A stretch of DNA of 64,000 nucleotides. Source: Gemmata massiliana (lineage in GTDB: Bacteria > Planctomycetota > Planctomycetia > Gemmatales > Gemmataceae). Of this stretch, positions 1 through 20,464 are shown in pieces. Below the pieces are notes generated by a model. The model was not told the origin of the DNA, did no database searches, and saw only the letters and a list, made by a program, of their open reading frames with translations. Made by a program: the position numbers and the translations under genes. Location of the stretch: the NCBI RefSeq assembly GCF_901538265.1, contig NZ_LR593886.1:3927738-3991737 (forward strand). Reading direction: 5' to 3'. Positions within the stretch are counted from its first letter, which is position 1, and each line of letters starts with the position of its first letter.

Positions 1-635
1 CCCGCGCGCTTCAGGTACCGGAGCGGGCGCTCGGCACGGAGGGCCGCTCCCAGGGAGAGCCACGCGATGCGGCCCCAGGACGGGTCCGGCACGTTGACCG
101 AGAACACGAACCGCCCGCCCGGGCGCAGAACCCGGGCCACCTCGTTCAGGAGCCGGTCGTATGCGTCCGCGGTCCAGCCCCCGGTGGTCGGGTTCCGGGA
201 CTCGGCATAGGAGATTGACAGACCCGACATGGCGTGGTCGAACGCGCCGTCCGCGAGCGGCCCGAGCCCGGTACTGAAGTCGTGGCACAGGAACGCGATC
301 CGGCTCCCCGGGCTCGGCGCCAGGGCCGTGCGGAGCCGCTCGTAGGCGCGGGCGTTAGCGGGCGCGCAATCGGTGCCGACGATCTCCGCGACCGTACCCC
401 CTGTGCGCTCCCAAATGGCGCGGGTCAGGGCGCCGCCCCCACACCCGAGGTCGAGCCAACGTTCGCCGGGCCCGGGTGCGGCCCATTCGAGAGTATCGGC
501 GAGGAGTTGTCGATACGGGGGCAAGTCGTGTTGCCCCCAGAAGGCTTTCGCGCACCGATCCGAAGGCCAATGGCTCGTGACGCCCAACATGCTGGTCCCT
601 TGTCCCGGGGTTCCGTTCGGGTGGGACAGTAGCAT
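1..635 (-). CDS. class I SAM-dependent methyltransferase (3' end outside window)
   Basis: Reading the minus strand from the ATG at 635-633 gives an open frame to the window edge. It begins MLLSHPNGTPGQGTSMLGVT and contains the SAM-binding motif I 'WLDLGCGGGALT' near residue 60. A later 'LNEVARVLRPGGRFVFSVNV' stretch is the post-motif strand typical of UbiE/methyltransferase-11 proteins. It probably transfers a methyl group to a small molecule, but nothing visible sets the substrate. The C-terminus lies beyond base 1, so length cannot be compared with the family. The family call is firm; the function is only generic. Confidence 0.85.
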   Translation of the reverse strand, partial: MLLSHPNGTPGQGTSMLGVTSHWPSDRCAKAFWGQHDLPPYRQLLADTLEWAAPGPGERWLDLGCGGGALTRAIWERTGGTVAEIVGTDCAPANARAYERLRTALAPSPGSRIAFLCHDFSTGLGPLADGAFDHAMSGLSISYAESRNPTTGGWTADAYDRLLNEVARVLRPGGRFVFSVNVPDPSWGRIAWLSLGAALRAERPLRYLKRA

Positions 636-707
636 TTCCACGCCGAGAAAAAACCCCAAGGGCCTGCGAATCGTGCTGGTTTTAAGAGCGTGGTGGAATT
701 TCGGCTG

Positions 708-735
708 AGGCTGTCGGGGGAACTCCCGACAGCCT
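708..735. terminator. 11-bp stem-loop
   Basis: AGGCTGTCGGG (708-718) and CCCGACAGCCT (725-735) form a perfect 11-bp stem with a 6-nt loop. It lies between the methyltransferase start and the end of the next minus-strand gene. There is no T-run, so it is a candidate terminator or structural barrier only. Confidence 0.4.
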
Positions 736-831
736 TCCGATGTCGCGAGTACTTCGCTTGAATTTGGGTCAGGTTCCGGCAGGGAATGGTTGGCGGGTGA
801 CGCCGGTTGGGACTCGCCGGCGCGCCTCATT

Positions 832-1500
832 TTATTCTTTTGCCAACACCAGGTCGACAACCCAGCACCCGCGTACGTGCGGCCCGGGGCTGCGGCAGTG
901 TCCGAGCACGTCGGCGCTATCACACCCCGCGTCTTGGAGCGCATCCGCCAGGATCGGCATCGCGCCGAAGTCGCGGGACTCGTACATCTGGGATGCCAGC
1001 GCGACTGCGGTGGAGCTGCGCCAGAAGGGTGAGAAGGTAACCGGGCGGAATGGGTTGCGGAAAATGCACCGTGCGAACAGGGCAGCGGCTAGCTGGTAAG
1101 AGCCCGACCGAGCGTCGAAACGGTCCGGCAGTGTCACATCTTGAGCCAGGGCCGCCCATCGGCCGTGAGCGGACAGAGTCCGGCCGGCCGACCGCACCGA
1201 TACCGCGCCGAGGTCATCAGACTCGTAGGCCCTAAATTCTTGATTGAGCCGGGATGCTTCCATCGTTAGCCGCACGACCTCTTCATCTGAGATGGTCCCG
1301 TCGGCGACCTGCTCTGCCGCGTCAATTAGCGCCCCCAATCGGGCGGTTGGCCACACATCCGCCCACTGCCGACTACACGCAACCGCCAACAACCTCATTT
1401 TCCGCTCGGAGCGACGAGGGGATTCCATGATGAGACCGAGCAAGAAACGATACGTTTTTTGGTCCCACTCATTGGCGCGCATGTGTTCCTCTTCGGTCAT
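832..1500 (-). CDS. Gemmata-type hypothetical protein with C-terminal 'HVRGCWVVDLVL' motif
   Basis: This 222-residue protein begins MTEEEHMRANEW. Its N-terminal half, 'RSERKMRLLAVACSRQWADVW', and its tail, 'LADALQDAGCDSADVLGHCR' followed by 'GPHVRGCWVVDLVLAKE', match a multi-copy family I associate with Gemmataceae genomes. In other family members the tail is very conserved. The molecular role is unknown. There is no signal peptide or membrane helix. Assignment rests on remembered sequence style, not a search. An alternative start is Met7, which follows the acidic MTEEEH. Confidence 0.7.
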   Translation of the reverse strand: MTEEEHMRANEWDQKTYRFLLGLIMESPRRSERKMRLLAVACSRQWADVWPTARLGALIDAAEQVADGTISDEEVVRLTMEASRLNQEFRAYESDDLGAVSVRSAGRTLSAHGRWAALAQDVTLPDRFDARSGSYQLAAALFARCIFRNPFRPVTFSPFWRSSTAVALASQMYESRDFGAMPILADALQDAGCDSADVLGHCRSPGPHVRGCWVVDLVLAKE

Positions 1501-1623
1501 CGATCGTCCCCTGGCATCACCGCTTTGACCGGGTACGAACGCGGCTCTTGCTCGCGCCTACAAGCGCCACTTGTTTTTGCGATGTCGCCAAAGCCCCATG
1601 CAAGCGCCTCGGGTCGTTCCCGG

Positions 1624-1998
1624 TTACTTGTCCTTACTGCGAACAAACGCCTTCTCGCGCCCGCGTTCCATCGTGCCCACCAACTCAGTGTCGGTCAACT
1701 TGGTGACGGTGAGCGTCTCTTTTGCTTCCTGGTCGCCGCTCTTGACGACCGTAATGAGCTTGTTGCCCTCGATCGTGTACGTGCCCTCGACCCGGATCGG
1801 TTTACCGGGCGACAGCATGAAAGCGGACTTGGTCTTGCCGTCCTTGGTGAACTCGATGACCAAGCCGGTCTTCGTGTTCTGCGCGTCCCAGCGCCCGACC
1901 AGTTTCGCGGGGTCGATTTTCTCCAACTTCGCATCGTCCGCAGACGCACCTGACGCGAAGGCCATGACAGCCAGAGCACAAGCTAAACGTGCGCGCAT
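1624..1998 (-). CDS. small secreted lipocalin-like protein (TIGR03066-style)
   Basis: The 124-residue product starts MRARLACALAVMAFASGASA, a clear Sec signal peptide with likely cleavage after ASA near residue 20. The mature part has 'LVGRWDAQNTKTGLVIEFTK', then 'GTYTIEGNKLITVVK' and 'LTDTELVGTMERG'. This alternating beta pattern is that of the short 'G.W' lipocalin-like/TIGR03066 proteins abundant in Gemmata. The GRW motif is the best marker. It would act outside the inner membrane; the ligand is unknown. It is a lone gene on the minus strand. Confidence 0.7.
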   Translation of the reverse strand: MRARLACALAVMAFASGASADDAKLEKIDPAKLVGRWDAQNTKTGLVIEFTKDGKTKSAFMLSPGKPIRVEGTYTIEGNKLITVVKSGDQEAKETLTVTKLTDTELVGTMERGREKAFVRSKDK

Positions 1999-2097
1999 CT
2001 CATCCCCTTTTGTTCCACGGAGTACGGGACACGAACCAGTAGACCAGACCGGGTACGACGCGCCAAGCCGTGGAGTGAGATGGTATCGGTTGACGCG

Positions 2098-2418
2098 GCT
2101 TCAGCGTTCCTCGAGCCGGATCTCGTCCCAGGCCGGGACTTGAACCCCGTTGACCGCCTACGCCTCGTGGTGAAAGACTCACGGCACCCCGCGAACCGTG
2201 AATGCCTTCCCCTCGCGCGATTTCTGGAGCCAATTCCCGATCAGCGTCACCGTGCGTTCCTGGTCATCAGCTCGTAATACCGCGTCGCCTCTCGGCACAG
2301 CAAATACACGACCGGCGTTCCGCGCCCCTCCTTCACCAGTAGCCCTTCTACACCCCGTTTGATCGTACCCGTCCGGTGGGTCGTGTGACAGTCGAGTGAA
2401 GCCTCGTCGGCAGCCCAA
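2098..2418 (-). pseudogene. decayed paralogue of the secreted protein at 9412-9783
   Basis: On the minus strand this region aligns with the C-terminal half of the gene at 9412-9783. It has 'DDQERTVTLIGNWLQKSREG' and 'KAFTVRGVP', then a stop, 'VFHHEA', a second stop, and 'AVNGVQVPAWDEIRLEE'. The intact paralogue reads CGA where this copy has TGA, and TAT where this copy has TAG. Two nonsense substitutions in an otherwise well-kept frame mean a dead gene. Upstream homology fades beyond about 2300, so the N-terminal part may be lost too. Confidence 0.75.
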
Positions 2419-2625
2419 ACCGAGTGGCGGGTGTCGACGGTCCTATACTAATGACTCGTTGTCGTCCGCCCATTCGTCGCCGACGTACTGAGCGGATCTG
2501 GCGTTCCGGGCATGTGCGGCCGCGTCAGGCTGCTGGTGTAGGCTCGATTTGGGACTGTAGAGCCGCCCGACGGTGCTCGTGACGTGGAACGGAATCCGAA
2601 CTGTTTCCCATACGAGGGCCGTCCG

Positions 2626-4209
2626 ATGCGCGGGCTCTGCTTCCTGGTGGCATCCGCGTTAACTGTTGGAGTCATCGCCGCACCGGTGCCCGCTCCGACG
2701 CCGAAGTTCGAGCTCGGCAAGGACACGACGTACCTCACCGGCCCGCTCGACGCCGAGGGGTTCGTTGATTACGAGACCGCACTGAACGAGCGTCTCCGCG
2801 GCAAGATCGAACCGGGCGAGAATGCCGTATCTCTGCTGGTCGAAGCCATCGGACCGAAACTGGACGGGAAGAAGCTGCACCCCGACTTCTTCAAGTGGCT
2901 GGGCACCGAGCCACTGCCGGAGAATGGGGAGTATCTCATCGGTGCCGCCGAGTTCTTCGGTGAGGAACGCCGCCAGGAGGGCTTCTTCGAGCGGGAAGGC
3001 CGGCGGATGTCCGAGCCCTGGACGGCCGAGGACGACCCGAAGTTCGCCGAATGGCTGGCGAAAAATGAGAAGCCGCTCGCGAAGGCGACCGAGGCGGCGA
3101 AGCGGAAGCACTACTTCTGCCCGCTCGTGGCGCGAACCGGGACCGGCGCGCGCGGTTCGCTGCTGGTGGCCGCCATGATGGGCCCGCCGTCCGGGTCGCG
3201 GCAGATCGTACAACTCCTGAGCGCCCGCGTGATGCTCCGGTGCGGCGAGAAGAAGTACGACGCGGCGTGGCAGGACATCCTGAGCATTTACCGCCTCGGC
3301 CGGCTGACCTCTCGCTCCGGCACCCTCATCGGGTCACTCGTCGGCATCTCGTTCGGCGCTGTCGCCGAGGGAAAGGCGCTCGCGCTTCTGGAGTCGTCGA
3401 AGCCATCGGCGAAGCAGGCGCGGCAATTCCGCGACGATCTCCTTGCCCTTCCGCCGCCCATGCCATTGGCTGAGGTGTACGACGGGTACGAACGATTCGG
3501 CTTCCTCGACTCGCTCCGCGAGTACCGGCGGAAGGGCGTCCGCGCGGTGCCGTTCCTCAAGGACGAGGAGGAGCTACCGACCGAGGAGCGGACGGAAGCG
3601 TCGATGAGCCAGATCGATTGGGGGCTGATCCAGCGAACGGGGAACGGAGCGCTCGACAAGGCGGTCGCCGCGTGCCGGTTGCCCACCCACGCCGCCCGGA
3701 TGAAGGCCCTGACGGAGGTGGCCAAGCCGTTCCTGCCCGAAGGCCCCAATGACGCCAACCCGTTCGACGTGCTGAAGACCGACGACTTGGTTGCCCTGCT
3801 CAAGGAGACCGACCCGAAGAAGTTGCGGACGACCGTGAGCGAGACGCTGGCTCGCCGTGTCGTCCGCGATCACGTGTTGGTCTTTGACAAAATCGCGACG
3901 AGCGTCGATCGGGCCGAACAAACGCACCGGAATCTCCTCGTCGCGGTCGCACTGGCGGGGCACCTCGCGGACACGGGCAAGTACCCAACGAAGCTGGCCG
4001 ACCTCGCGCCGAAGTACTTGGTCACGGTGTCCGATGACCTGTTCAGCGGGAAGCCGCTGGTCTACAAGCCGGCGAACGGCGGCTACCTGTTCTACAGCGT
4101 CGGCGTTAACGGTGCCGACGACGGCGGGAAGCTATTCAACGACCACTTGGACGAGCGCGGCGACGACATCGGCGTCCGTATGCCGCGATCGAACGCAACC
4201 GATCGCTGA
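2626..4209 (+). CDS. large secreted planctomycete hypothetical protein
   Basis: The chosen start at 2626 gives MRGLCFLVASALTVGVIAAP, a signal peptide, with a GAGG ribosome site about 9 bases upstream. The upstream in-frame Met at 2584 would bury the signal and is less likely. The mature protein (about 507 residues) is alpha-helical and charged, with 'VLVFDKIATSVDRAEQTHRN' and 'KYPTKLADLAPKYL' near the C-terminus. That last region resembles pilin-like or 'YP..L..LVPKYL' segments of other planctomycete secreted proteins. No catalytic motif is evident. Function unknown; location outside the cytoplasmic membrane is inferred from the signal. Confidence 0.8.
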   Translation: MRGLCFLVASALTVGVIAAPVPAPTPKFELGKDTTYLTGPLDAEGFVDYETALNERLRGKIEPGENAVSLLVEAIGPKLDGKKLHPDFFKWLGTEPLPENGEYLIGAAEFFGEERRQEGFFEREGRRMSEPWTAEDDPKFAEWLAKNEKPLAKATEAAKRKHYFCPLVARTGTGARGSLLVAAMMGPPSGSRQIVQLLSARVMLRCGEKKYDAAWQDILSIYRLGRLTSRSGTLIGSLVGISFGAVAEGKALALLESSKPSAKQARQFRDDLLALPPPMPLAEVYDGYERFGFLDSLREYRRKGVRAVPFLKDEEELPTEERTEASMSQIDWGLIQRTGNGALDKAVAACRLPTHAARMKALTEVAKPFLPEGPNDANPFDVLKTDDLVALLKETDPKKLRTTVSETLARRVVRDHVLVFDKIATSVDRAEQTHRNLLVAVALAGHLADTGKYPTKLADLAPKYLVTVSDDLFSGKPLVYKPANGGYLFYSVGVNGADDGGKLFNDHLDERGDDIGVRMPRSNATDR

Positions 4210-4269
4210 GGAGTATTCGCCGGCGACAGGGGCGGGGAGGCGGATCGGGGCCTGCTGCGGCTGGGTCGC

Positions 4270-4426
4270 GGCCTGGGACACGAACCGTGATGGGTTCGCC
4301 GAAATCATCGTGGGCAGCGGCCCAGAGCGCCCGGCCACGGTCCGCACCTTTGACGGGGTGACGCTCCAGTTACTGTCCGAAGTCGCGATGAGCGATCCGC
4401 TGAACCTCGGAATCTTTGTTGGCTAA
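4270..4426 (+). pseudogene. C-terminal remnant of an FG-GAP/VCBS repeat protein
   Basis: The plus frame gives 'WDTNRDGFAEIIVGSGP' and 'ATVRTFDGVTLQLLSEVAMS', ending 'LNLGIFVG' and a stop at 4424-4426. D-x-N-x-D-G-x-x-E/D-I-I-V-G is the calcium-binding blade motif of FG-GAP beta-propellers, which in planctomycetes form large exported proteins. Only about 50 residues remain, with no start or upstream blades, so this is the tail of a lost gene. Confidence 0.7.
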
Positions 4427-4432
4427 TGTCCC

Positions 4433-4491
4433 GTGCGCGCCACCGGCCCGACTGAGCACTTCTAACGCTCAGTCGGGCCGGTGGCGCGCAC
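4433..4491. terminator. 25-bp perfect stem-loop
   Basis: Bases 4433-4457 and 4467-4491 are exact reverse complements around a 9-nt loop (ACTTCTAAC). It follows the FG-GAP tail stop within about 10 bases and would terminate that transcript. It also precedes the 37-bp repeat at 4519, the same order as seen at 20306-20447. Confidence 0.75.
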
Positions 4492-4518
4492 CGCAATTTC
4501 ACTTCCCCGATATTCTGT

Positions 4519-4555
4519 CCCCGGTTACCCTCGTGTCGTCGGTTCCACCTGCGCG
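4519..4555 (+). repeat. copy 1 of a 37-bp intergenic repeat
   Basis: This block begins CCCCGGTTACCCTC and ends CCACCTGCGCG. It recurs at 20411-20447 with a few mismatches, where it lies just upstream of a small secreted-protein gene. Here no such gene follows; the next feature is the end of the convergent fusion gene. It may be a promoter region orphaned when its gene was replaced. Confidence 0.65.
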
Positions 4556-4628
4556 TCTACTCCGGGGTATCCGTTCACGGGTTGTATTCTGAGGCAAGCG
4601 CGTTTAGAGGGTTGTCACGCATCACCCC

Positions 4629-7529
4629 TCACCCCGGCACCCCCCCCTTTGGGGTAGGGCGGACGCCCTCGCCAGCCGAATTCGCCGCGAGCGGTTTTCG
4701 GACGCGGGAGTAGTGCGGGGGAATAAACCCTTTGGGATACACTTGCATGTCCGGGAAGCGCCTGCGCCGGCGGGTCTCGCAGAACCGGTCCAAGTCCCGC
4801 TGACCGGATCGGAGGAACTGCAAGAAGCTCACGCCCCTGTATCGGCAGGTGTGGCATAGGCTGAGTAGTAACAGGTACTCTTGCAGTCCGGTTTCCCCTA
4901 ACCTTCCCGCGGTGCGATCCCTGTAGTACCCGAACTGGCGGATGGCATTCTCCGCGTTGTTGTTGTTCCAGGGGACGCCGTCGTACTCGAGGAACGTGAA
5001 CAAGCCGCCCCGGTTCCGCAGCAGCCTCTGCCGCAGATCCTCCGCCGCCTCCGACCGGAACGGCTGGCCGGATAACGTGCCGAAGAAGTCTGCGACCGCC
5101 GGGCGATGAGCGCCGAGGTGCCGCCGCTTCAACCCGTGCTGATCGATAGTCGTAACGGCGGCGCGGAGCAGGCGGCCGAACGCCTCGGTCACCGACTTCA
5201 GCTCGGTGTCGAACGGGTGGTTCAGGAGCAGTTGGTTCATGTCCCGGATCAGGTGGATCAGGCACTTTTGCTTCGGACAGGGGAGCGCGTCGTATGCCGC
5301 GTAGAAGTCCGAGACGAGTACCCCGCGGAAGTCCTCCAGGTACTTCCCGAGGAACCCGCCCTCCCGGGTGGGCCGGTACTGGTAGAGGACGGTCTCGACG
5401 CTCGCGAACACCCAGATGTAGCCTCGCCCGGTCCGCAGCGCCACCTCCGTCTCGTCGGCGTGGATCAGACTGCCGGCCCGCAGCGAGGTGAGCAGCTGCC
5501 GGTAGGTCGGACGGTAGTAGTGGGCGAGGAGGCCCTTGATCATGTGCAACTCGGTCCGGTCCACGTCCAGTCCGAACTGCTCCCGGAACATCGCCTCCAC
5601 GACCGCCAGCCCGAGCCGGTGTCCGACGTGCATGTGCATCGCCCAGCTCTTCAGCCCGTGGTAGTGCTTGTCCAGCCGCTCGTACGCCTCGGGGACGAAG
5701 ATTCGCCCACAGTTCGAGCAACGGTACGGGCGGGTCCGGCAGCGGATCACCCGACGTCTGATTCCCGCCGGGGTGATGACCAGGTCGAAGGCCCGCTTCC
5801 CGGCCGTGGGCCACACGGGCGCCCCGTCCCCGGTGGCGATCGCGACATCCTCCGACCGGCAGTGGGGGCATCGTCCGGCCTCGACAACGACCTCTCGGCT
5901 CACGCGCACCTTTCGGTTCACCCGCTCCTTCGACCGGGCCACGTTCTTCCGAAGGGTGCGGCTGGTGCGGACGTACACCCTCTCCCGTTGGTAGTCGAAG
6001 TACGCGAGCTTGTTGACCGCAGCGAAGTCCGGGTTTGCGAACGCGATGGATCCCGACTTCCGCGGGAAGGCAAGGGCGTCGAGGTCTTCCACCCGCGCGG
6101 ACGGTGGAGCGTTTGCGGTCGTGGCCGAGGCGCACCCGGCGTCTCCGGGTGCGAGCGCGAACAGCACCTCGACCACCCGCTTCAGCGCCGCGCAATCGTC
6201 CAGGTTGTATTGCAAGAGCCTCTGCTTGAGCGAGTCCTCCCCGGTCCGTTCCCAGTCCGACCGCCAGACCAGGCTCTGGAGCCCGGACGCGTCCGGGGCC
6301 GCCCACGCGAAGCCCAAGGACCGGGCCACGTCCTTGAGTCCGTTGGAGTAGACCGGGAAGTACACGTGGGCGTAGATGACCGACAGGACGTTCGTCGTTC
6401 GGGCGAGCACCTGGTCGGCCAGCCGCTTGCGGCCCGCGTGCTTCCGCATCCGCTTCAAGAATGCTCGCTCGTAACTGCCGTAGCAGAACACCCGGAAGTC
6501 CTCGTACCCCCGGAGCAACTGGAGGAGTTGCTCGAAGATGCGTGGCTCGTCTTCTGGCCGATCCGCCCAGAATGAGTGCCGGGACTCGACCGATTCTTCG
6601 ACCACAATCACCCCGACCAGGTAGACGAACGAGTCCCCCGACTTCCCTTCGAGGTCCAGGTACACCCGGACGGGGGCGTCGGGGAGGCGCGGCGAGCCGA
6701 ACACGTACGTCTTCCGATCGCGGATCGCCAGCGCCTGCAGGGCCGGGTTGTGATCGTGTCCCCCGGCACGTGATCGCTTCCGCTGCCGCCGCGGCCGGAA
6801 CGTGTGCGCGAGTTGGGTGACGGTCAGGATGCCCTTGCGTGCAAACCGCTGAATATCCTTCTCCCTCAGCCCCCGGAGCAGGCTCAGGTCGTCGGTCTTC
6901 GTCGCCTCTTGGTGGCAGCCGTCCCGGAACTCACACTCGGCGCAGTGGCCGTTCAGCGTGAGCCGCGGTCGGCTCGCCCCCATCTGTTGTTCCCGGAGGT
7001 CCCGCCAGGCGCGGCTGGCCGCTTCCTGGAGCCTGACGGTCAGGCTGATGCGTGCCGGGCAGTCACCCCGGCCCCGGTACACGAATGCCGTGTCGGGTTG
7101 CCGGCCCTGAAGGTCGCCGACGACGCGCCCCAGAGCGGCGAGGAGGAGGCGCTGGACGAGCCCGACCTTCTCGGACTCGTGGTACAGGACAGGGGCGTAG
7201 TGAAAGTCGCCCAGCAAGGACCGTCCGGGCACGCGTCTGAGCCCGTCGAAGGAGAGCGATACGCTTTCGTCCTCCGCTCGGACGTCGAGCAGATGCGTCA
7301 CTCCCTGCTTGAGTACCGCGAGGGACAAGTCGAAATCGCACATCACCTCCCCTGGAGCGTGGTCGGCGCGGATCGCGGCGGCCGCCCGGTCTCTCACGTC
7401 GCGCCGATCCCTCAACCGGAGCGTCTGGTAAGCCGCCGGCTCGGCCCGCGTCCCGGCGAGCGTCAGGTGCCCCTTGTACCGGCAGTGGAGGTAGGACTCG
7501 ATGACGTCCCGGGTGATCTTTGCGGACAT
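4629..7529 (-). CDS. TM0106-type RecB/Cas4-like nuclease - RNase H-like - IS66 transposase fusion
   Basis: This is a single 966-residue frame. Residues 1-210 are a PD-(D/E)XK domain of the TM0106 RecB-like family. They carry a Cas4/AddB-like cysteine set: C16 near the N-terminus and C196-x2-C199-x5-C205 after the nuclease core, with D108 and E118-x-E-K121 as candidate active-site residues. Residues about 286-455 are an RNase H/exonuclease-like domain with 'VYLDLEG' (D292, E294) and 'YNLDDCAAL' (D444, D445). A linker ('AYFDYQRERVYVRT') leads into an IS66-type transposase: zinc pairs C554/C557 and C604/C607, then DDE residues D692 ('HADE'), D741 ('VSDFYAAYD') and E860 ('NNNNAENAIR'). Stand-alone TM0106 proteins usually stop after the RNase H part or continue into a helicase. 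The last 20 or so residues look like intergenic read-through. Start ATG at 7529; no recognised accessory IS66 orf lies beside it. Confidence 0.88.
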   Translation of the reverse strand: MSAKITRDVIESYLHCRYKGHLTLAGTRAEPAAYQTLRLRDRRDVRDRAAAAIRADHAPGEVMCDFDLSLAVLKQGVTHLLDVRAEDESVSLSFDGLRRVPGRSLLGDFHYAPVLYHESEKVGLVQRLLLAALGRVVGDLQGRQPDTAFVYRGRGDCPARISLTVRLQEAASRAWRDLREQQMGASRPRLTLNGHCAECEFRDGCHQEATKTDDLSLLRGLREKDIQRFARKGILTVTQLAHTFRPRRQRKRSRAGGHDHNPALQALAIRDRKTYVFGSPRLPDAPVRVYLDLEGKSGDSFVYLVGVIVVEESVESRHSFWADRPEDEPRIFEQLLQLLRGYEDFRVFCYGSYERAFLKRMRKHAGRKRLADQVLARTTNVLSVIYAHVYFPVYSNGLKDVARSLGFAWAAPDASGLQSLVWRSDWERTGEDSLKQRLLQYNLDDCAALKRVVEVLFALAPGDAGCASATTANAPPSARVEDLDALAFPRKSGSIAFANPDFAAVNKLAYFDYQRERVYVRTSRTLRKNVARSKERVNRKVRVSREVVVEAGRCPHCRSEDVAIATGDGAPVWPTAGKRAFDLVITPAGIRRRVIRCRTRPYRCSNCGRIFVPEAYERLDKHYHGLKSWAMHMHVGHRLGLAVVEAMFREQFGLDVDRTELHMIKGLLAHYYRPTYRQLLTSLRAGSLIHADETEVALRTGRGYIWVFASVETVLYQYRPTREGGFLGKYLEDFRGVLVSDFYAAYDALPCPKQKCLIHLIRDMNQLLLNHPFDTELKSVTEAFGRLLRAAVTTIDQHGLKRRHLGAHRPAVADFFGTLSGQPFRSEAAEDLRQRLLRNRGGLFTFLEYDGVPWNNNNAENAIRQFGYYRDRTAGRLGETGLQEYLLLLSLCHTCRYRGVSFLQFLRSGQRDLDRFCETRRRRRFPDMQVYPKGFIPPHYSRVRKPLAANSAGEGVRPTPKGGVPG

Positions 7530-7607
7530 GACGGGCCTCTTTGTAAGGGCCGCGTCCTTGCGACGGGAAAGATGACTTGGAACTTCGAGAGACCAACGAC
7601 GACGTCG

Positions 7608-7829
7608 TCACCGGCTGACCGCGGGCAGTAGAGACGGGCGCGATTGGTGCCGTACGGTCGCGTCGCACGTGCGGGCCAAGTACTCCAGGACGTCCCGGCC
7701 TTGCTGCCGACAGGTGGCCACCACGGTCAGCACTCGCTCGACGAACCGGCTCCCGCCCGCCGAGCCGGTCCCGTAGCTCATCTTCCGCCAACACACGGCG
7801 TGCCGCAACGCCCGCTCGGCTCACACGAT
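7608..7829 (-). pseudogene. IS66 transposase C-terminal fragment
   Basis: The minus frame reads 'AERALRHAVCWRKMSYGTGS', then 'GGSRFVERVLTVVATCRQQG', 'RDVLEYLARTCDA' and 'SRPSLLP' to a stop. This is the standard IS66 C-terminus after the catalytic Glu (NNxAERALR). An in-frame TGA sits immediately before AERALR and no upstream catalytic domain follows, so only the tail survives. It lies 78 bp upstream of the fusion gene and is unlike that protein's own C-terminus, so it comes from a different IS66 element. Confidence 0.8.
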
Positions 7830-8147
7830 GAGCTGCGAACCCCAAAAGCCGACATGCGGGCTGTGCAGATATAGTGTCTGGCGCTCACTTGCCGCGCGAC
7901 GACTGGCACATCACTCGGTCGCCGACCAGTTCCACGGACGTGCCCCGCCACTGCCCGCCCGGTCCGCGGAACACCACCATGCCCTGGTTGGGGGTTGCTA
8001 CCGTTCCGAGCCATGAACTCGTCACGCCGCCGAACACCAATCTCACCTGCTACAAAAACGGCGGGATACGGTAAAGATTCAGAAAATCGGTCCCGCCCCG
8101 CAGTCATGTGCCGCGCCGGGTTCGGCGCAGCCGCCTCAAGGTCGTAG
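7830..8147. other. intergenic, no supported gene
   Basis: About 320 bases. On the minus strand a frame from about 8045 to 7885 reads 'GTVATPNQGMVVFRGPGGQW' and ends '..MCQSSRGK' and a stop. It lacks an ATG and follows a stop, so it may be the tail of another lost gene. Nothing else is recognisable. Confidence 0.4.
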
Positions 8148-8444
8148 TTAGCGATCCTCCCATCGCCGCCGCCGTTCACGATCGTACAGCGCGTGCTCCA
8201 CGATCAGACCGATGAGGGCGAACACCATGAATCCACCCGTGACCGAGCCGGCGAGGTAGGCCGGGTCACTGCCCCCGGATCGGAACAGGCCGAGCAGGCC
8301 GCCCACGACCCCGAGGCCCAGCGACCACTTCAGCCGGGATCGCGGCGGCTCGGTTGGGCGTGACTCGGGCAACTCCTTGGCCGCGGCCGGCCACTTGGGC
8401 AGGTTCCCGAAGCCTCCCTCTCCAGCATTACGGCTGTCGCTCAT
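8148..8444 (-). CDS. small two-helix membrane protein
   Basis: Start at 8444 gives MSDSRNAGEGGFGNLPKWPA. An alternative start 24 bases upstream adds an arginine-rich leader. The N-terminal 45 residues are polar. Two hydrophobic segments follow, 'WSLGLGVVGGLLGLF' and 'LAGSVTGGFMVFALIGLIV', with a very basic tail 'YDRERRRRWED'. That predicts an integral inner-membrane protein of 98 residues with both ends in the cytoplasm. No family recognised. Confidence 0.65.
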   Translation of the reverse strand: MSDSRNAGEGGFGNLPKWPAAAKELPESRPTEPPRSRLKWSLGLGVVGGLLGLFRSGGSDPAYLAGSVTGGFMVFALIGLIVEHALYDRERRRRWEDR

Positions 8445-8509
8445 CAGCGTCCTCCGTCGCCGAACCATGACTCACCGGCCGCACCCACGCGACACGTTCG
8501 CGAAACAAG

Positions 8510-9115
8510 CTACGTGCAGTGGTCCCGCGCAGAGCGGGGTTCGGCCGTCTCAGGGAGGTCCGTAAGGCACCGCTCGGTCCAACCCGCGAACCATTCGACC
8601 AACGTCGGCGGGCGGGGCAGTGGGGGCAACTGGCCGGGGTGTGGCGTGCCGGGATCCCACCACCCCGGCGGACGGCACGCCGGCACCCACTCCCCCGAGA
8701 ACCCGGCGAAACACGCAACGTCCCACACGCGCCCGGCGAACGCGCCCGTTAGTACCAATACCGACCAGAACGTGCAGCCCTGGTGACAAATCGGTATGCA
8801 GCCGTCACACGGCCAGTCACGGTCGACGGGGCGGACTTCCACGTCGCGCAGGTCGTCCGCGGCGAGCGGGAAGAGATCCGTCGGGCGCACCGGCCGTCCC
8901 TCTTCGGCCTCGTACTCTTGAGCCCAGCCCCTGAACTCGTTCAGCGACTTACCGGGGCTCCACAGCCCGTAGTAGGGACCGGCCCCGTGCCCGAGTTGCA
9001 GCATGAGATCCCGGTACTCGGCCGGGAGCGAGACACCGAGAGCAGCTTCGACGCGGTCCAACTCCCCCCGTCCAACCGAAGCGCTGTAGTAGCGATGCGC
9101 CTTGGCCCCGAACAC
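8510..9115 (-). CDS. SMI1/KNR4 (SUKH) family protein, start region disturbed
   Basis: The core 'LDRVEAALGVSLPAEYRDLM' with 'LGHGAGPYYGLWSP' is the SUKH/SMI1-KNR4 signature; these proteins often serve as immunity proteins against polymorphic toxins, or as small regulators. A 'GCTFWSVLVLTGAFAGRVWD' strand set follows, as expected. In the same frame upstream of the GTG at 9115, codons 9187-9116 still encode family-like sequence ('EIELLREHLTELRRRDPGYK'). That stretch has no ATG, GTG or TTG. An ATG about 15 bases further up is one base out of frame. The true N-terminus has therefore probably suffered a 1-base deletion, or an unusual start is used. No toxin gene is visible nearby. Confidence 0.75.
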   Translation of the reverse strand: MFGAKAHRYYSASVGRGELDRVEAALGVSLPAEYRDLMLQLGHGAGPYYGLWSPGKSLNEFRGWAQEYEAEEGRPVRPTDLFPLAADDLRDVEVRPVDRDWPCDGCIPICHQGCTFWSVLVLTGAFAGRVWDVACFAGFSGEWVPACRPPGWWDPGTPHPGQLPPLPRPPTLVEWFAGWTERCLTDLPETAEPRSARDHCT

Positions 9116-9411
9116 CTTGTAGCCGGGGTCACGCCTCCGCAGCTCAGTCAGGTGCTCCCGTAACAGCTCGATTTCCGTTATCGCATGCCTCCGCGCGTGG
9201 CCGAACTTAGAATTGGCCTACCGGCTGGGGACCGGTATTTATTGGTGAAACTTCTCGCAGGATACCATATTCGTTCCCCTGTTCAAACGGGAAGTGACCC
9301 GTGTTCGTTTGCTCCAGTCAACGAAGGGGCTCCTTAAGGGTTCTCTTGCGTCGACCTCGAATGTACCTCCGACGCGCTCGTGATCCGGGCACAGAGCCGA
9401 TTCGAGGAATG

Positions 9412-9783
9412 CTAGCGCTCCTCGAACCGGATGTCGTCCCAGGCCGGGACGTGTACCCCGTTCACCGCATACGCCTCGTGGTGAACGACTCGCAGTGTGC
9501 CGCGCACCGTGAATGCCTTCCCCTCGCGCGCCTTCCTCGTCCGGTCTCCGATCAGTGACACCGTGCGCTCCTGATCGTCACCGTCGCGTAATACGGGGCC
9601 ACAGATCGTGCGCAGTTGGCCGTTCACGGGCCACGTGTACGCGGGCGCGTCACCGATCGTAAACCGGATCGTCACGTTGTCGCCAGCGAGGCGCGCGGCC
9701 TGCTCGATGGTCAAGGTGTCGAACTTGATGACGGGCGTGGTGGGCGGAGCGCCCAGAAGGGAGCAAAAGATGATGGTGTTCAT
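9412..9783 (-). CDS. small secreted planctomycete protein
   Basis: The start at 9783 gives MNTIIFCSLLGAPPTTPVIK, a short hydrophobic export-like leader. A Met 13 codons upstream would add a polar leader and is less likely. The body reads 'NVTIRFTIGDAPAYTWPVNG', 'RTVSLIGDRTRKAREG', 'KAFTVRGTLRVVHHEAYAVNG' and 'VHVPAWDDIRFEER'. A decayed paralogue lies at 2098-2418. Members of this group in Gemmata look like small beta-rich domains that bind or modulate exported proteins, but this is inference. Function unknown. Confidence 0.7.
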   Translation of the reverse strand: MNTIIFCSLLGAPPTTPVIKFDTLTIEQAARLAGDNVTIRFTIGDAPAYTWPVNGQLRTICGPVLRDGDDQERTVSLIGDRTRKAREGKAFTVRGTLRVVHHEAYAVNGVHVPAWDDIRFEER

Positions 9784-9834
9784 GGGAATGATTGGAGCAG
9801 ACGAGCGCGGGGAATGCAACAACGTCGCGCGCGT

Positions 9835-10110
9835 TCACGCGGCGTCGAACAGGCTCGGCTGGATGCGTGGTGATACGGGTACAGGTTCGACGGGTTTGAT
9901 CAAATCGGCCCCGCCCGCGCTCGCCCGGTTCACGCACTCGCTCACCGGCCATGCCTCCATCTGTTCGGCCGGGTACGGGGTGAGCAGCGGGAGCAGGTTC
10001 GCGGACCGCGTTTCCTTCGGATCGAGCCACGCCGCGAAGTGTTCTTCGGGGAGGATCGCGGCCATGCGCTCGTGGAACGCTACTAGTTCGTTGGGCGATA
10101 CCGTGAGCAT
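9835..10110 (-). pseudogene. C-terminal fragment of an SRAP (YedK/HMCES-type) peptidase
   Basis: The 91-residue frame has 'ELVAFHERMAAILPEEHFAAWLD' split by none, then 'LLTPYPAEQMEAWPVS' and 'VNRASAGG'. These are the C-terminal signatures of SOS-response-associated peptidases (HxRMPVIL, AWLD, PVS..VN). The N-terminal catalytic Cys2 and the DNA-binding core, about 130 residues, are absent; upstream bases 10111-10276 do not supply them. It is therefore a truncated, probably inactive relic of an abasic-site DNA-protein crosslink enzyme. Confidence 0.8.
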
Positions 10111-10276
10111 ACAGCCCTTGAGTGACTAGCTGAACAACCTCATGCCGGGCAAAGTATCTCCAACGTGCGGATTGAAACGATTGCAATGCTGATTTGGGTT
10201 AGGCATCGTTACGGAGTCGTGGGATGCGAATTTGATATCTGGGTAAATTAGCAGCTTTGGGGTAATTATTCCTTAA

Positions 10277-12289
10277 TTGCTTCTGGTGACGGATTCCGAA
10301 ATCAACGCGACGCCAAAGCTGAACTCTGTGCCGACGAACGAGCCGATTGATACGAGCGACCTGTTCCCCGATTATCTGGTCGAGTGCGACGAGCACCTGA
10401 CCGGGGCCAGGCGTTTGTTGCTTCAACTCGAATCGAACCCAGCGGAAGCCCGGCGCGAGCACCTCGACGGCCTGTTCCGACACTTCCACACAATCAAAGG
10501 GTTGTCCGGGATCGCCGCGGTACGAGAAGCCGAGTTACTCGCGCACCATTTGGAAGAGTACCTCGGCGCACTTCGTAAGAATCTCGTGTCGCTGACTCCC
10601 GCGGGCGTGGACGCCCTTGTCGCGGGTGCCCGAACACTCGAAGGCGCGATCAGCGCCCGGCGCGATGGGACACCGCCGCCCGAGTTTAATGCGCTGATCG
10701 CGCAGTTGACGGCCCTAACAAACGGGACCGCCGCACCAACCGCGAACCCGAACGCAGCTCGACGTCAAACCCCAATCAGTTCAGCGCACCCACCGGATAA
10801 ACCGGATCACACACCAGAAGTTCTGCGCACGGGTAACCGGGTGTGGCGGGTGACGTTCACCCCGACGCCGGTTCTATCCGAGCGCGGGGTGAATGTGAGC
10901 ACGGTCCGCGAGCGATTGCGCGTCGCGGGTGAGATCGTCCGGGCCGAACCGATCACCGTCCCCGGTGGCGGAATCTCGTTCGCGTTCCTCGTCACCAGTT
11001 CGAACGCGGATTTCCCGTCCCACTTTGCCGGCGACGGGCTGAGGGTCGAGCCTTACGAGTCGCCCGCCCCGGAACCGGTTGTCGAGCCGTCTCGTTCCGT
11101 CCCCCTCGCGCCCAGTAACATCGTCCGCGTGGATCTGGGAAAACTCGATGAGCTGATGCGAACGCTCGGCGAACTGGTCATTACGCGGGCGCGACTCGAT
11201 GGAGTTTTGGGGCGCGTATCCGCTCTGCTCCCGGCTGCCGAACGGCGCGAACTGCAAGAGACGAGCCTGACCGTCGAGCGCCAGTTGCGCGCGCTCCGCG
11301 ACGGTGTGATGCGCGTCCGCCTCGTTCCCATACGGGACGTGTTCACGCGGATGCGGTTCGTCGTGCGCGATCTCACACGCGAAACCGGTCAGGAGATCGA
11401 ACTCGGTTTGACCGGCGAGGGGACCGAGATCGACAAGTTCGTGGTCGAGCGCCTCGCCGACCCGCTCTTGCACCTCGTGCGGAACGCGATCAGCCACGGA
11501 ATGGAACCGGTCGCGGAGCGCATTACGGCCGGGAAGCCCGCACGCGGGCGGATCGACTTGCGCACTGTGGCCGCGGGCGGGGCGGTCGTGATCGAGGTTG
11601 AAGACGACGGGCGCGGGATCGATGCAGAACGAGTGTTTGCCCGTGCCCGCGCAGCGGGCCTCACGCCCCCCGGCGGTTGGTCCGATCCAGGAGCGGTACT
11701 CGATCTCATTTGCTCGCCCGGCTTCTCGACCCGCGACTCGACCGACCGAGCGAGCGGGCGCGGGGTCGGGATGGATGTCGTCCGGCGCGCGATCGAGGAA
11801 CTCGGCGGGACGCTCGATTTAGTAACCCGTCCCGGGCGCGGAACCCGCTTTACGGCCCGGTTGCCGCTCACTCTGGCCATTGCCGACGCTCTGATCGTGA
11901 CCGTCGGTCCCCAAACTTATGCCGCACCGCAAGCCGCGGTACGCGAAGTTATCTTGGTCGAACCGGACACAGTGACCGCGTTTGAGAACAACGAGCTGAT
12001 CCGCCACCACGGGGGCGTGCTCCCGCTCTTGCGACTAACGGACCTGTTTCGCGCCCCCGAACCAACGACCGCGTTCCCGGCGCTCGTTGTGGGAGAGGGG
12101 TTACACGCGATCGCCATCGCCGTCGACCGCGTAATCGGGTTACGCGAGATCGTCGTGCGCCAACTGTCGGACCCGCTCGTGCAGGTGCCCGGGTTGGCCG
12201 GAGCCACCGAACTCGGCGACGGACGCGCCGTTCTGATTCTCGACGCCGTCGGCCTCGCTCGGTACGCCCGAACGCGCCGCCCCCACTGA
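10277..12289 (+). CDS. cheA: chemotaxis histidine kinase CheA
   Basis: This autophosphorylating kinase sits at the head of the chemosensory operon. Domains in order: HPt with phospho-accepting H71 ('HFHTIKGLSG'), a linker and P2-like region, a dimerisation helix pair ('LDELMRTLGELVITRARLDG'), an HATPase domain with N-box 'HLVRNAISHGME' (about residue 400), G1 'VEDDGRGIDAE' and G2 'GRGVGMDVVRRAI' (about 495), and a C-terminal CheW-like domain ('ALIVTVGPQTYAAP'). The 670-residue length is normal. The start is uncertain: TTG at 10277 or GTG at 10286, neither with a strong ribosome site. cheW follows after 4 bases, so the two are co-transcribed. Confidence 0.95.
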   Translation: MLLVTDSEINATPKLNSVPTNEPIDTSDLFPDYLVECDEHLTGARRLLLQLESNPAEARREHLDGLFRHFHTIKGLSGIAAVREAELLAHHLEEYLGALRKNLVSLTPAGVDALVAGARTLEGAISARRDGTPPPEFNALIAQLTALTNGTAAPTANPNAARRQTPISSAHPPDKPDHTPEVLRTGNRVWRVTFTPTPVLSERGVNVSTVRERLRVAGEIVRAEPITVPGGGISFAFLVTSSNADFPSHFAGDGLRVEPYESPAPEPVVEPSRSVPLAPSNIVRVDLGKLDELMRTLGELVITRARLDGVLGRVSALLPAAERRELQETSLTVERQLRALRDGVMRVRLVPIRDVFTRMRFVVRDLTRETGQEIELGLTGEGTEIDKFVVERLADPLLHLVRNAISHGMEPVAERITAGKPARGRIDLRTVAAGGAVVIEVEDDGRGIDAERVFARARAAGLTPPGGWSDPGAVLDLICSPGFSTRDSTDRASGRGVGMDVVRRAIEELGGTLDLVTRPGRGTRFTARLPLTLAIADALIVTVGPQTYAAPQAAVREVILVEPDTVTAFENNELIRHHGGVLPLLRLTDLFRAPEPTTAFPALVVGEGLHAIAIAVDRVIGLREIVVRQLSDPLVQVPGLAGATELGDGRAVLILDAVGLARYARTRRPH

Positions 12290-12293
12290 ACCG

Positions 12294-12767
12294 ATGGAGT
12301 TTTCGATCGTGGCGAACTCCGAACCGTACATCCTGTTTGAATTGGCGGGAGCCGCCTACGCTGTCGCGAGTGCGAACGTTCAGCGGATGGAAATGATTGA
12401 GAACGTGACCCCGGTGCCGAACGCGCCGGCGTTCGTGGACGGGGTGGTGTTCTCCCGCGGGCGCGTCGTCCCCGCGATCAACCTCCGGCGCCGGTTCGGC
12501 TTCGATCGCGTGCCCTACGACGAGAAGGCGCGCCTGATTGTGGTCGCGCACGCGGACCGTGCGGTCGGGCTGATCGTCGATTCGGCCCGCGAATTTGTGA
12601 ACGTCCCGAGCGACGCGATTCACCCCCCGCCCGAGGGCTTGGCCGGGATGAGTGGGAACTACCTGAGTGGTATCGCCACGATCGGCGGGCGCGTGGTTCT
12701 GATTCTGAACGTGGCGGAAGTATTGAACCGCACCGATGGATCGATGACGGCCCTTCCCGAACACTAA
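12294..12767 (+). CDS. cheW: CheW coupling protein
   Basis: This 157-residue CheW domain reads '[20 protein letters not shown]', '[20 protein letters not shown]' and '[10 protein letters not shown]', then '[12 protein letters not shown]' and '[15 protein letters not shown]'. It would couple the soluble receptor downstream to CheA. The gene begins 4 bases after the cheA stop. It has a single domain and no response regulator fusion. Confidence 0.95.
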
Positions 12768-12814
12768 CGGCCCGCACCCGGGCCTTTTTCCTCACCGATA
12801 CACCGGAGATCCAC

Positions 12815-14890
12815 ATGGCCGCCGAGTCCGCCGACATCGGGCGCCTTCGCGAAGAGACCGAGGGCGTCGTTTCTGTCATTGACAAATTGACGCACGTCGC
12901 CGAGCAAACTCTGAGCGGCACACAGACACAATTGCAGTCCCTGGAGAACGCGACCAGTTCGGCGAACGAAACCGCGGCCTCCCTCAAGGAGACGGCGGGG
13001 CAAACTGTGACCGTTGCCAGTTCGATGGAAGAACTGGCTTCGTCGGTGAACGAGATGGCCGCGTCTATCGAACAGGTGCGTGCCAGCACGGTGCAGTTCA
13101 ACACGGGCCTCACCGAGACCGCGGCGTCGGTCGAAGAGACTGCGGCATCCATTCAGGGAGTTACGGGAAAGACCCAGGAAATGGCCGCAGCTGCTTCCAC
13201 GGTCAGTGCGGCAATCGAGGAAGTCGCGTCGTCGATCAAAGGAGTGAGCGACGACGCGACGGCCCTGGCCGCGGCCGTTGAGGAGAGTGCAACGGCAGTC
13301 GAGGAGATGGCTCGGTCGATTCAGGGTGTGGCCAAGAACGCCGATGAACTGACCACCGCGGCCGAAACGACGGCGTCGGCCATTAACGAAATGGCCGCCT
13401 CCACGGAGCAAATGGCGGCAACGGCCGAGAGCCTGACCGCGGAAGTTGAAGGCGTCGCGACCGGCATCGAACAGGTCGCGCGTTCGGCCGCGGGTGTGGC
13501 TCAAAATGCCGAGAAGATTACGGACGCCGCCAGTACCGCGGCGACGAGCGCCACTCAACTCGATCGGTCCATTCACGCCGTTGCCGAGCTAGCGAAACAG
13601 GCGGACGAAGCGACGCGCCGGGTGGCCCGGGACGCCGAAGAGGGCGGGGCCGCGGTGCAGAAATCCATCAACGGTTTGAGCCGGGTGCGCGATTCGATGA
13701 CCCAATCGACTGGAGCGATCAAGGAAATGGGCAAGCGGGCGGGAGAAATCACCGGGATCGTGTCGACCATCAACACGATCGCCGAGCGGACCAACCTGCT
13801 GTCTCTAAACGCTTCAATTGAGGCCGCGCGAGCGGGTGAGGCCGGGCGCGGGTTCGCCGTCGTCGCGGAAGAAATTCGGAACCTCGCCAATCGCGCGGCG
13901 CAAGCAACCGCGGACATTGCGGCGATCATTCGCGGACTTCAAGAAGCAGTCCAGGACGCCGTTACGACTTCCAACGAGAGCGCGCGGGTAGCACACGAAA
14001 GCGGTCAACTCGCCGAAGACGGGATGGCCGGGCTGAAAAAGATCCTCGGTGGGGTTCAGGGAACAAGTCAGCTCGTCGCGCAAATCGCGCGGGCGACCGA
14101 GGAGCAAATTCAGGCCGGGCACCAGGTCGTTACGGGGATCAGCACGACAGCGACCCAGGCCCGGCAAGCGGCGACCGCGTCCGTTGAGCAGACGCGCGCG
14201 GCGCAGGGGATCGTTCAGGCAACCGGGCAGATGCGGAAGATCGCCCGACAGGTGGCGCAAGCGATGGGCGAACAGGGGCGCGCATCGCGCGACATTATTA
14301 AAGCGGGGCAAGCGACCCGCACACTGGCCCAACAAGTGCGCACCGCGACCAACGAGCAGGCAACCGGGGCCGGCCAACTCACTCAGGCGCTGGTATCGAT
14401 GCGAAAAGGTGCGGCGAGTACGGCCCGCGCCGTTGCGGAGCAGGCCACGGCCATCGACGACGTCACACGGGAGGTAAACGGGGTGGTGAAGCTCGTCGCC
14501 GATGTGTCGCGTGCGATGAGCGAACAGGCCGCGGCCGCGAGCGCGGTGGCGAAAGCCGTGGGGGACATGCGCCGCCAGTCCGGACAAGTGACTCAGGCCA
14601 TCGACCAACAGAATCAGGCCACGAAGGAGATGACCGGCGCGGCCGAGCACGTTTCCAAACAAATGGTGCTTATCACGCGCGCCCACCGCGAGCACTCCAC
14701 GGCCGGGGACGCGATCCTGCGTACTCTTGTGGAGATCCGCGAAGTTACCGAGCGCACGGCTCTGGGAGTCCGGGAATCGCACCGCGCGGCGGACGAATTG
14801 CGTCAGCGAACGGTCGCGCTGACCGCGCTCACGAACAAAATGGAGCAAACGGCCGCGGTCCCTCGATCGCGCAGGGGTGGAAAGAAGTAG
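12815..14890 (+). CDS. soluble methyl-accepting chemotaxis protein, long symmetric hairpin
   Basis: The 691-residue product is almost wholly heptad-repeat helix. The conserved receptor tip ('[20 protein letters not shown]', then '[19 protein letters not shown]') lies at about residues 318-352, so the arms on both sides are about 330 residues each. There is no signal peptide, transmembrane segment, HAMP or recognisable sensor domain. E/Q-rich sites such as 'SVEETAAS' and '[14 protein letters not shown]' could be methylated by CheR and CheB. It must be a cytoplasmic receptor whose input is direct or comes through a partner. GGAG sits 9 bases before the ATG. Confidence 0.9.
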
Positions 14891-14941
14891 AACCTGCTAA
14901 TGTAGAACGACGGATCGGCCGCGGGTCGAGACGGGAGGGGT

Positions 14942-15778: not shown

Positions 15779-15795
15779 CCGCACGGGGAGAGCTT

Positions 15796-16833: not shown

Positions 16834-17207
16834 TGGCAAGAATCCTGGTCGTGGACGATTCCGCCCTGTCGCGGCGCGTGTCCCGTCGCATTTTGGAGGG
16901 GGCGGGGCACGCGGTTGCAGACGTCGCGGACGGCTTGACCGCGCTGGAACGGTACGCGCTCGACCGGCCGGATCTCGTGCTGCTCGATGTGACAATGGCC
17001 GAAATGGACGGATTGGAAGTGCTCCGCCAAATCAAGGTCATGGACTCCACGGCCGTTGTGGTGATGGCCACCGCCGACGTTCAAAGCTCCACGCGGACGC
17101 TGGCCGAGACCGGCGGCGCGTCCGGGTTCGTATCGAAGCCCCTCAGCGCAGAAACCGTGCTCCAAGCCGTCGACGCGGCCCTCGTCGGACAGGGGGGCGC
17201 GAAGTGA
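16833..17207 (+). CDS. cheY: CheY-like single-domain response regulator
   Basis: This is a 124-residue receiver domain with D8/D9 and phospho-acceptor D52 ('VLLDVTMAEMDG'), T80 ('VVMATAD') and the conserved K102 ('FVSKPLS'). There is no output domain, so it works by protein contact, as CheY does. Its ATG overlaps the cheB stop. Whether the final target is a flagellar motor, a pilus or another system cannot be told here. Confidence 0.93.
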   Translation: MARILVVDDSALSRRVSRRILEGAGHAVADVADGLTALERYALDRPDLVLLDVTMAEMDGLEVLRQIKVMDSTAVVVMATADVQSSTRTLAETGGASGFVSKPLSAETVLQAVDAALVGQGGAK

Positions 17208-20447: not shown

Positions 20448-20464
20448 CCTTTGGGGAACCGAGT

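Follow-up and report, generated by a model that had tools for sequence, protein, structure and literature searches.

A stretch of 64,000 nucleotides of the Gemmata massiliana genome (contig NZ_LR593886.1, positions 3,927,738 to 3,991,737 of the forward strand), hereafter the window and numbered from its first letter, contains a gene on the minus strand at 4629..7529 in which a TM0106/COG2251-type exonuclease is joined to an IS66 transposase in one chain. We tentatively regard this gene as one copy of an old, patchily distributed fusion that arose once and is now a stand-alone accessory DNA-processing enzyme, out of insertion sequence (IS) life, and we give this reading a probability of about 0.4. 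The observed facts fit a low-copy transposon whose ends were missed almost as well.

Domain architecture of the fusion protein

In the fusion protein, a Cas4-like Fe-S domain is followed first by a 3'-5' exonuclease-type domain and then by an IS66 DDE transposase domain; the frame is confirmed as real and unbroken. The frame has 966 codons, starts with ATG at 7529, and contains no internal stops; an earlier note made from the sequence alone had the coordinates and the unbroken frame right but omitted the minus strand. The TM0106 RecB-like nuclease model TIGR03491 matches residues 7-454 with 229.9 bits (curated cut-off 97.45), and the IS66 transposase model NF033517 matches residues 539-907 with 184.2 bits (curated cut-off 180). 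In Pfam, RNase_H_2 (PF13482) covers residues 289-456 and DDE_Tnp_IS66 (PF03050) residues 626-870. These matches agree with that note's view that a nuclease, an RNase H-like domain, and an IS66 transposase occur in one protein. The parts of the gene are as follows.

4629..7529, minus strand: fusion gene, an open reading frame (ORF) of 966 aa, TIGR03491 and NF033517 above cut-off, with PF13482 and PF03050 matches
6840..7529, minus strand: predicted Cas4-like Fe-S domain, residues 1-230, from the VIA match to the Cas4 part of 7mi5 and motif counts
6150..6677, minus strand: predicted DnaQ/PolB-type 3'-5' exonuclease domain, residues 285-460 (D292, E294, E354, D445), from PF13482 and VIA
5910..6149, minus strand: low-confidence linker, residues 461-540, with a predicted local distance difference test (pLDDT) score below 50
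4794..5912, minus strand: predicted IS66 DDE transposase domain with a four-Cys site, residues 540-912 (D692, D741, E860), from the structure model and VIA

The whole-protein model, built from 8 homologues, had a mean pLDDT of 71.8 and a predicted template modelling (pTM) score of 0.49. Residues 1-220 matched the Cas4 part of the Cas4/Cas1-Cas2 complex 7mi5 (VIA Z 16.5, root-mean-square deviation (rmsd) 3.3, 193 aligned). Residues 285-495 matched family-B DNA polymerases (VIA Z ~12.6-14.4), presumably in their exonuclease domain, as well as MrfB 8un9 (VIA Z 13.0, rmsd 4.0, 166 aligned). Since a Foldseek search with the whole model matched the IS66 half only weakly (6xgx, E 0.03), this half was modelled alone from 13 sequences, which gave a pLDDT of 83.9 and a pTM of 0.72. 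In this model, the triad residues follow the order expected of a DDE enzyme: D692 sits within a core strand, D741 comes immediately after a later one, and E860 is part of a late helix. The best match of the IS66-half model was the ISCth4 transposase 6xg8 (VIA Z 12.9, rmsd 8.2, 314 aligned), with Hermes (Z 8.4) and Tn5 (Z 7.0) as further matches. A search of solved structures by sequence gave nothing convincing, only Cas4 8d3l at E 0.015.

The linker between the two halves (residues 461-540) occupies the place of the N-terminal LZ_Tnp_IS66 region of ordinary IS66 transposases. PF13007 (LZ_Tnp_IS66) and PF13005 (zf-IS66) were matched by none of eight fusions at E 0.01, whereas an ordinary IS66 in the genome of the Burkholderia carrier matched both. 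The G. massiliana genome is a single contig of 10.1 Mb with one full fusion match and three partial matches to the IS66 half, and no TIGR03491 match was found in it besides the fusion gene.

Distribution, phylogeny, and active-site residues of the fusion family

Whether such fusions occur in other organisms had been left as a matter for database searches, and the same domain order was indeed found elsewhere: after deduplication, 25 distinct long frames span both halves. By record title, the carriers are Planctomycetota, Burkholderia, Nostoc, Fortiea, Ferruginibacter, Bacteroidales, Verrucomicrobia, and a Deltaproteobacterium, together with plasmids of Acaryochloris and Calothrix. At large, the spread covers Planctomycetota, Cyanobacteria, Burkholderia, Bacteroidota, Verrucomicrobia, and a Deltaproteobacterium, several carriers being metagenome-assembled genomes (MAGs), whose taxonomic labels can be wrong. 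It should be noted that the 25 frames include two with damaged N-termini (SED5, G397) and one with a truncated C-terminus (Fortiea), and that G682a, G682b, G438a, G693a, G1054, and the broken G217 and G380 copies stand outside this set. A scan of genome contigs gave 12 homologous loci, 8 of them near full length, and further homologues with this joint came from the genomes of the carriers themselves and from the window's family.

The fusion is rare wherever it was counted. Near-full-length copies were present in at least 3 of 294 genomes of the window's phylum (one with an internal stop), at least 8 of 291 genomes of the order of the Nostoc carrier (plus one partial copy), and at least 2 of 398 genomes of the family of the Burkholderia carrier; these counts, which include the carriers at the centre of each comparison, are lower bounds because two to three candidates were scored per genome. 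Among 633 matching plasmid records, 2 cover at least 80% of the query. Phage records gave a single match, covering 29% of the query, and viral contigs gave none. The distribution is sparse and accessory, on plasmids and in variable regions, for which horizontal transfer may be the cause.

The two halves were placed in separate phylogenetic trees. In the nuclease tree, the fusion halves fall on one side of a branch from 30 solo or helicase-length proteins, with a support of 100 in the Shimodaira-Hasegawa-like approximate likelihood ratio test (SH-aLRT). In the IS66 tree, they form one clade apart from 37 ordinary IS66 transposases (SH-aLRT 99), on a long separate branch. Both are quick trees carrying SH-aLRT support alone, and the nuclease tree leaves out 3 of the 12 reference TM0106 rows (L019, L038, L042) as poorly aligned. 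Since each half forms one clade, the clade structure points to a single fusion long ago. One locus of G302, a genome that also has a full fusion, contains the IS66 half only (L138; G302:C85, 2294-3529) and is nested in the fusion clade, which is best read as a later loss of the nuclease half. In the copy G693b (L196), the N-terminal part is ~88% DNA-identical to another G693 copy while its IS66 half groups elsewhere; as its halves group near different relatives, fusion copies may exchange halves.

The ratio of nonsynonymous to synonymous substitution rates (dN/dS) was 0.12-0.32 in each of the three domains over six pairs, a rough estimate given that dS exceeds 1 in several pairs and that the G380 copy ends at its in-frame stop. 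These values indicate that all three domains are under purifying selection. Together with the 25 distinct long frames, they show that the fusion is not due to chance. Likewise, an assembly join of two genes, which the earlier note had considered, is ruled out, because the window lies in one 10.1 Mb contig and many homologues from distant lineages have the same joint in other assemblies.

Residues of both halves are strongly conserved. Across the 25 fusions, D292, E294, D445, D692, D741, E860, C196, C199, C205, C554, C604, and C607 are invariant, C557 is Cys in 24, and residue 354 is E in 22 and D in 3. C16 is kept in 23 (24 in the other alignment), the two exceptions being frames whose N-terminus is damaged or absent. 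Four features that the earlier note had picked out in the window are therefore family-wide: the Fe-S cysteine set C16, C196, C199, C205 (23-25 of 25), the RNase H-like acidic set D292/E294/D445 (25 of 25), the two zinc pairs C554/C557 and C604/C607 (24-25 of 25), and the IS66 DDE triad D692, D741, E860 (25 of 25). The acids of the PF13482 domain (D292, E294, E354, D445) are presumably catalytic.

The PD-(D/E)XK residues that the same note had also reported were not recovered. The window has L-Y-H where (D/E)xK would stand, and the motif was found in 0 of 24 aligned fusions, with none in residues 104-126; the 25th fusion has a gap there. The first Asp of the site (residue 95) is D in 17 of 25. 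The stretch reads YAPVLYH in the window and YEPVLFS, YVPMLFH, or YEPTIVV in relatives, and YEVVDTK or close to it in four plasmid TM0106 proteins. Among 12 reference TM0106 rows, residue 115 is D in 9 and E in 1, and residue 117 is K in 10. The 21 cyanobacterial solo TM0106 proteins have D/E at 115 in 5 and K at 117 in 10, so that the motif is partly lost in them as well. An active PD-(D/E)XK nuclease in the fusion is not supported by these alignments; because (D/E)xK is absent, the Cas4-like part is probably, though not certainly, a binding module. Residue 380 is N in 24 of 25 fusions and D in all 21 cyanobacterial solo proteins and 11 of 12 other TM0106 rows, and N at this position is a signature of the fused exonuclease.

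We propose that the Cas4-like Fe-S domain, its nuclease motif gone, would grip DNA ends, that the DnaQ-like domain would trim 3' strands, and that the DDE domain would cut or join DNA. The usual substrate would most likely be foreign or mobile DNA of the variable genome. That the exonuclease and DDE sites are active, in what order they act, on which substrate, and to what benefit for the carrier is inferred.

Insertion-sequence features and genomic surroundings

As far as tested, the fusion gene does not behave like an IS. According to PMC11946415, IS66 elements have terminal repeats of 20-30 bp beginning GTAAGCG and 8-bp duplications. In the 600-bp flanks of 23 fusion loci, the best inverted-repeat score was at most 12 in 22 loci and 15 in one (G693a), compared with a null from mismatched flanks that had a mean of 9.5, a 95th percentile of 12, and a maximum of 14. 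None of the best inverted matches at these 23 loci begins with GTA. The G693a match, which lies above the null maximum, is on a GCGATCGC-type word, and we take this word to be a common cyanobacterial repeat. An earlier inverted-repeat scan of 18 loci, which reached up to 700 bp and came without a statistic, pointed the same way. A GTAACCGTTCAC-type end, sought with 2 mismatches up to 800 bp, was absent from 27 of 28 loci, this end type being known only from the window's relatives; the window is the only locus of the 28 to have it, in a single copy.

Nor was IS-like amplification seen in the loci tested. Some genomes hold two or three diverged fusion copies, and no near-identical pair was found in 10 genomes with at least two fusion loci, fragments counted. 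The closest pair within a genome was 94.9% identical over 276 bases, inside a more diverged pair. In contrast, close to one G693 fusion lies a repeated element of 1.1 kb for which 39 other copies were found, all 98-100% identical.

In the window itself, two further features flank the gene.

7608..7820, minus strand: IS66 relic, the last 70 codons and stop of an ordinary transposase, upstream of the fusion gene, from DNA identity and translation
4567..4584, plus strand: lone IS66-type terminal repeat GTATCCGTTCACGGGTTG, 44 bp past the fusion stop, matching the 3' end of the L090 IS66

The relic has 72-87% DNA identity to the 3' ends of ordinary IS66 genes in the same genome and in relatives; its stop leads directly, in the same reading frame, into the open frame of the fusion gene. 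The L090 element, whose 3' end matches the repeat at 4567-4584, is an ordinary IS66 of a genome of the same genus. The earlier note had proposed a search for IS66 terminal inverted repeats around the gene; what was found is this lone end, with no partner within 800 bp upstream of the fusion gene. The end at 4567 was rejected as proof of an IS carrying the fusion, as it has no upstream partner and no counterpart at the 27 other loci. Because the partner is missing and a 70-codon IS66 fragment lies upstream, the end and the fragment read as relics of an ordinary IS66.

The local setting is rearranged IS66 debris. The flanks at 2103-4558 and 7811-9594 recur, 95-97% identical, permuted and without the fusion, at 7.755-7.759 Mb (L118), where the copy lies next to a segment 92% identical to window 20411-23724. 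The joints of the duplicated flanks are marked by short direct repeats (2103-2180 / 9414-9491). L118 was considered as an empty site and rejected, since its junctions differ and the segments there are duplicated in permuted order. A terminator-like palindrome at 4431-4492, with arms of ~25 bases, is also present in the L118 copy, and a chemotaxis cluster (CheA-, CheW-, MCP-, CheR-, and CheB-like) lies beside the rearranged region at 10277-19920. Rfam had no matches in window 1-12000, and a plasmid search with window 7530-7830 had none either.

Within 4 kb, no family of neighbouring genes was shared by more than 4 of the 34 loci; TnsC/TniQ partner genes were covered by this tally alone, no direct TnsC search having been made. 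A common upstream gene was not found, the upstream ORFs of the Burkholderia and Calothrix copies not aligning with each other. The 131 proteins encoded near the fusions at 24 loci include 4 with a Phage_integrase match and 4 that match ParA-like ATPase families. Both are absent among the 25 commonest families listed for 131 control proteins, the last rank of which has 2 members. The controls were 131 of 137 ORFs from 20 windows in the genomes of 6 carriers (the 3 longest were dropped, and 3 more to match the number), and the PADLOC and Pfam family tallies, made by alignment, show the 25 commonest families only. Near the G534 copy, the DISARM genes drmC, drmB, and drmA lie within 2-7 kb (L218 14624-19971), with a YhaV toxin on the opposite side, and a HEC-01A protein lies within 1 kb of the Nostoc copy. 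Such defence genes near fusions are suggestive only.

Alternative readings and comparison with known systems

The main rival holds that the protein serves as transposase for a low-copy mobile element whose ends are atypical, short, or far from the gene; the fused exonuclease would process these ends in the manner of Tn7, and the element would remain at few copies. We consider it a serious contender that falls short of even odds. The DDE triad kept in all 25 fusions and the purifying selection speak for it, and such selection would be expected in a working transposase too. Furthermore, the Nostoc and Fortiea copies are 95% identical, with homology beginning ~48 nt before the start codon and the sequences unlike beyond, a comparison of the left side only, as the Fortiea copy is truncated at its right end. 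Identical copies to this degree in unlike surroundings suggest that something moves the gene. The G302/G380 pair, in which one copy comes from a Deltaproteobacterium MAG and the other from the window's family, is likewise 76% identical over the gene, with little homology beyond. The Burkholderia copy lies ~0.5 kb in from the border of a variable region of ~14-21 kb, which differs from the two relatives that cover both sides and also contains a phage-type integrase. The plasmid copies in Acaryochloris and Calothrix fit a mobile element as well, and TnsA (PMC9527255) is a precedent for a nuclease working with a DDE transposase.

The repeat test was also only weakly sensitive. Ends were sought only within 600-800 bp of the gene, and of 27 ordinary IS66 loci taken as controls, 6 gave no ORF and 21 were used, with 1400 bp upstream in place of the 600 bp for the fusions. 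A GTA-type repeat was the best match in only 9 of these 21 (L023, L024, L026, L089, L090, L099, L101, L103, L104), a score of at least 13 was reached in only 7, and an 8-bp duplication stood beside the repeat in 4 (L026, L089, L090, L101). Short ends may therefore be missed, since few IS66 controls showed repeats. These points, with the unlike surroundings of the Nostoc and Fortiea copies and the selection shared with working transposases, weigh against an enzyme past its IS life, as do plasmid copies and patchiness, which do not fit housekeeping domestication, and the want of a recurring partner. However, the low-copy transposon has to contend with the lack of a clear repeat excess within 600 bp at 23 loci, the GTAACCGTTCAC-type end being absent from 27 of 28 loci (though known only from the window's relatives), no near-identical copies within any of 10 genomes, no recurring cargo or partner within 4 kb, and N-terminal IS66 regions undetected in eight fusions. 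Empty sites were sought through the flanks of the Burkholderia, G534, and G693 copies, and none was found, the G693 genus being represented by one genome only. Around the Nostoc fusion and the gene preceding it, a 67-bp direct repeat with 94% identity was observed (L128 11436-11502 / 15236-15302).

An anti-phage or anti-plasmid effector, in which exonuclease and DDE endonuclease degrade invading DNA, seems unlikely. The patchy occurrence in variable regions and the DISARM and HEC-01A genes near the G534 and Nostoc copies are in its favour, and PADLOC families matched by the 131 neighbours numbered 113, compared with 52 for the 131 control proteins. However, PADLOC families are redundant, which makes their number a weak measure, and control windows of the same genomes, drawn from 6 carriers only, contain defence-family matches too. 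The fusion protein itself matched 0 PADLOC families at E 0.001, and 7 neighbours in the Burkholderia locus had no PADLOC match. Because of the matches in control windows, this null result, and the absence of a recurring partner, the link to foreign DNA that the stand-alone enzyme would need is circumstantial too.

A more speculative reading, which we think improbable, is DNA capture by one protein: the Cas4-like domain would only hold ends, the DnaQ-like domain would trim them, and the DDE domain would insert the trimmed fragment into the genome. The protein would then be a transposase-based analogue of CRISPR spacer acquisition, mobilizing DNA other than its own. Finally, that the gene is an ordinary IS66 joined to a nuclease by chance or by mis-assembly, or else a relic in decay, is hardly credible: the window copy does lie between relics of ordinary IS66 and some relatives are broken (G217 and G380 by an in-frame stop, G397 as split copies, L138 without the nuclease half), but the same joint occurs in 25 frames whose clade structure points to one origin, selection acts on both sides of it, and the window lies in a single contig.

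In the open-licence PMC papers searched, neither a TM0106-type exonuclease joined to IS66 nor the combination of IS66, Cas4, transposase, and exonuclease was found, and absence there is not proof; TM0106 turned up in corrosion papers, and papers on MrfB and YprA helicases offered background only. The Acaryochloris fusion is annotated as a TM0106 nuclease (WP_261892461.1) and the Calothrix fusion as an IS66 transposase (BDA76463.1). With one architecture labelled now as a nuclease and now as a transposase in public records, the family has been hidden.

According to PMC3985635, COG2251 proteins contain a DUF83 domain, which resembles PD-(D/E)XK nucleases, together with a PF13482 domain, the presumed 3'-5' exonuclease, and tandem AAA domains are frequent. 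The earlier note's remark that TM0106 proteins often continue into a helicase agrees with this description and, by length alone, with three plasmid TM0106 proteins (1111-1129 aa, the fourth being 758 aa). With solo or helicase-fused TM0106/COG2251 proteins (TIGR03491), the fusion shares the Cas4-like Fe-S and PF13482 domains, the four cysteines, and the exonuclease acids; it differs by the C-terminal IS66 transposase, the missing (D/E)xK, N at 380, and its separate clade. With IS66 (NF033517, PF03050), it shares the DDE domain and triad and a four-Cys site that we take to be like zf-IS66, but no LZ_Tnp_IS66 or zf-IS66 matches (eight fusions), paired ends near the gene, or amplification were found, and it stands on a long separate branch.

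In Cas4-Cas1-Cas2 and DnaQ-type trimming, an end-trimming nuclease works beside an integrase, the same idea as in the fusion, and Cas4/DnaQ-type end trimming is known in CRISPR adaptation. Cas4 of 7mi5 and 8d3l is the best structural match of fusion residues 1-220; in the fusion, however, the part of the integrase would fall to the IS66 DDE domain of that one chain, and the Cas4 motif is absent. The Tn7 nuclease TnsA is a PD-(D/E)XK endonuclease, whereas the fusion has no PD-(D/E)XK motif, a DnaQ-like conserved site, and no recurring partner genes. Like Tn7, the fusion pairs a nuclease with a DDE transposase, and in Tn7 the presence of TnsA beside TnsB gives cut-and-paste movement (PMC9527255). 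While nuclease-teamed DDE transposases are known from Tn7, a TM0106-type exonuclease with IS66 and without recognisable IS ends was not found in the literature searched. With end-trimming and end-joining chemistry in one chain, the fusion allows a direct test of a transposase turned to another use.

TnpA-REP, as described in PMC8266576, is a domesticated HUH transposase without IS-like duplication and housekeeping-like in character. The fusion is likewise a transposase relative at low copy and without duplication, but it is a DDE rather than an HUH enzyme, and is patchy and found on plasmids rather than housekeeping-like.

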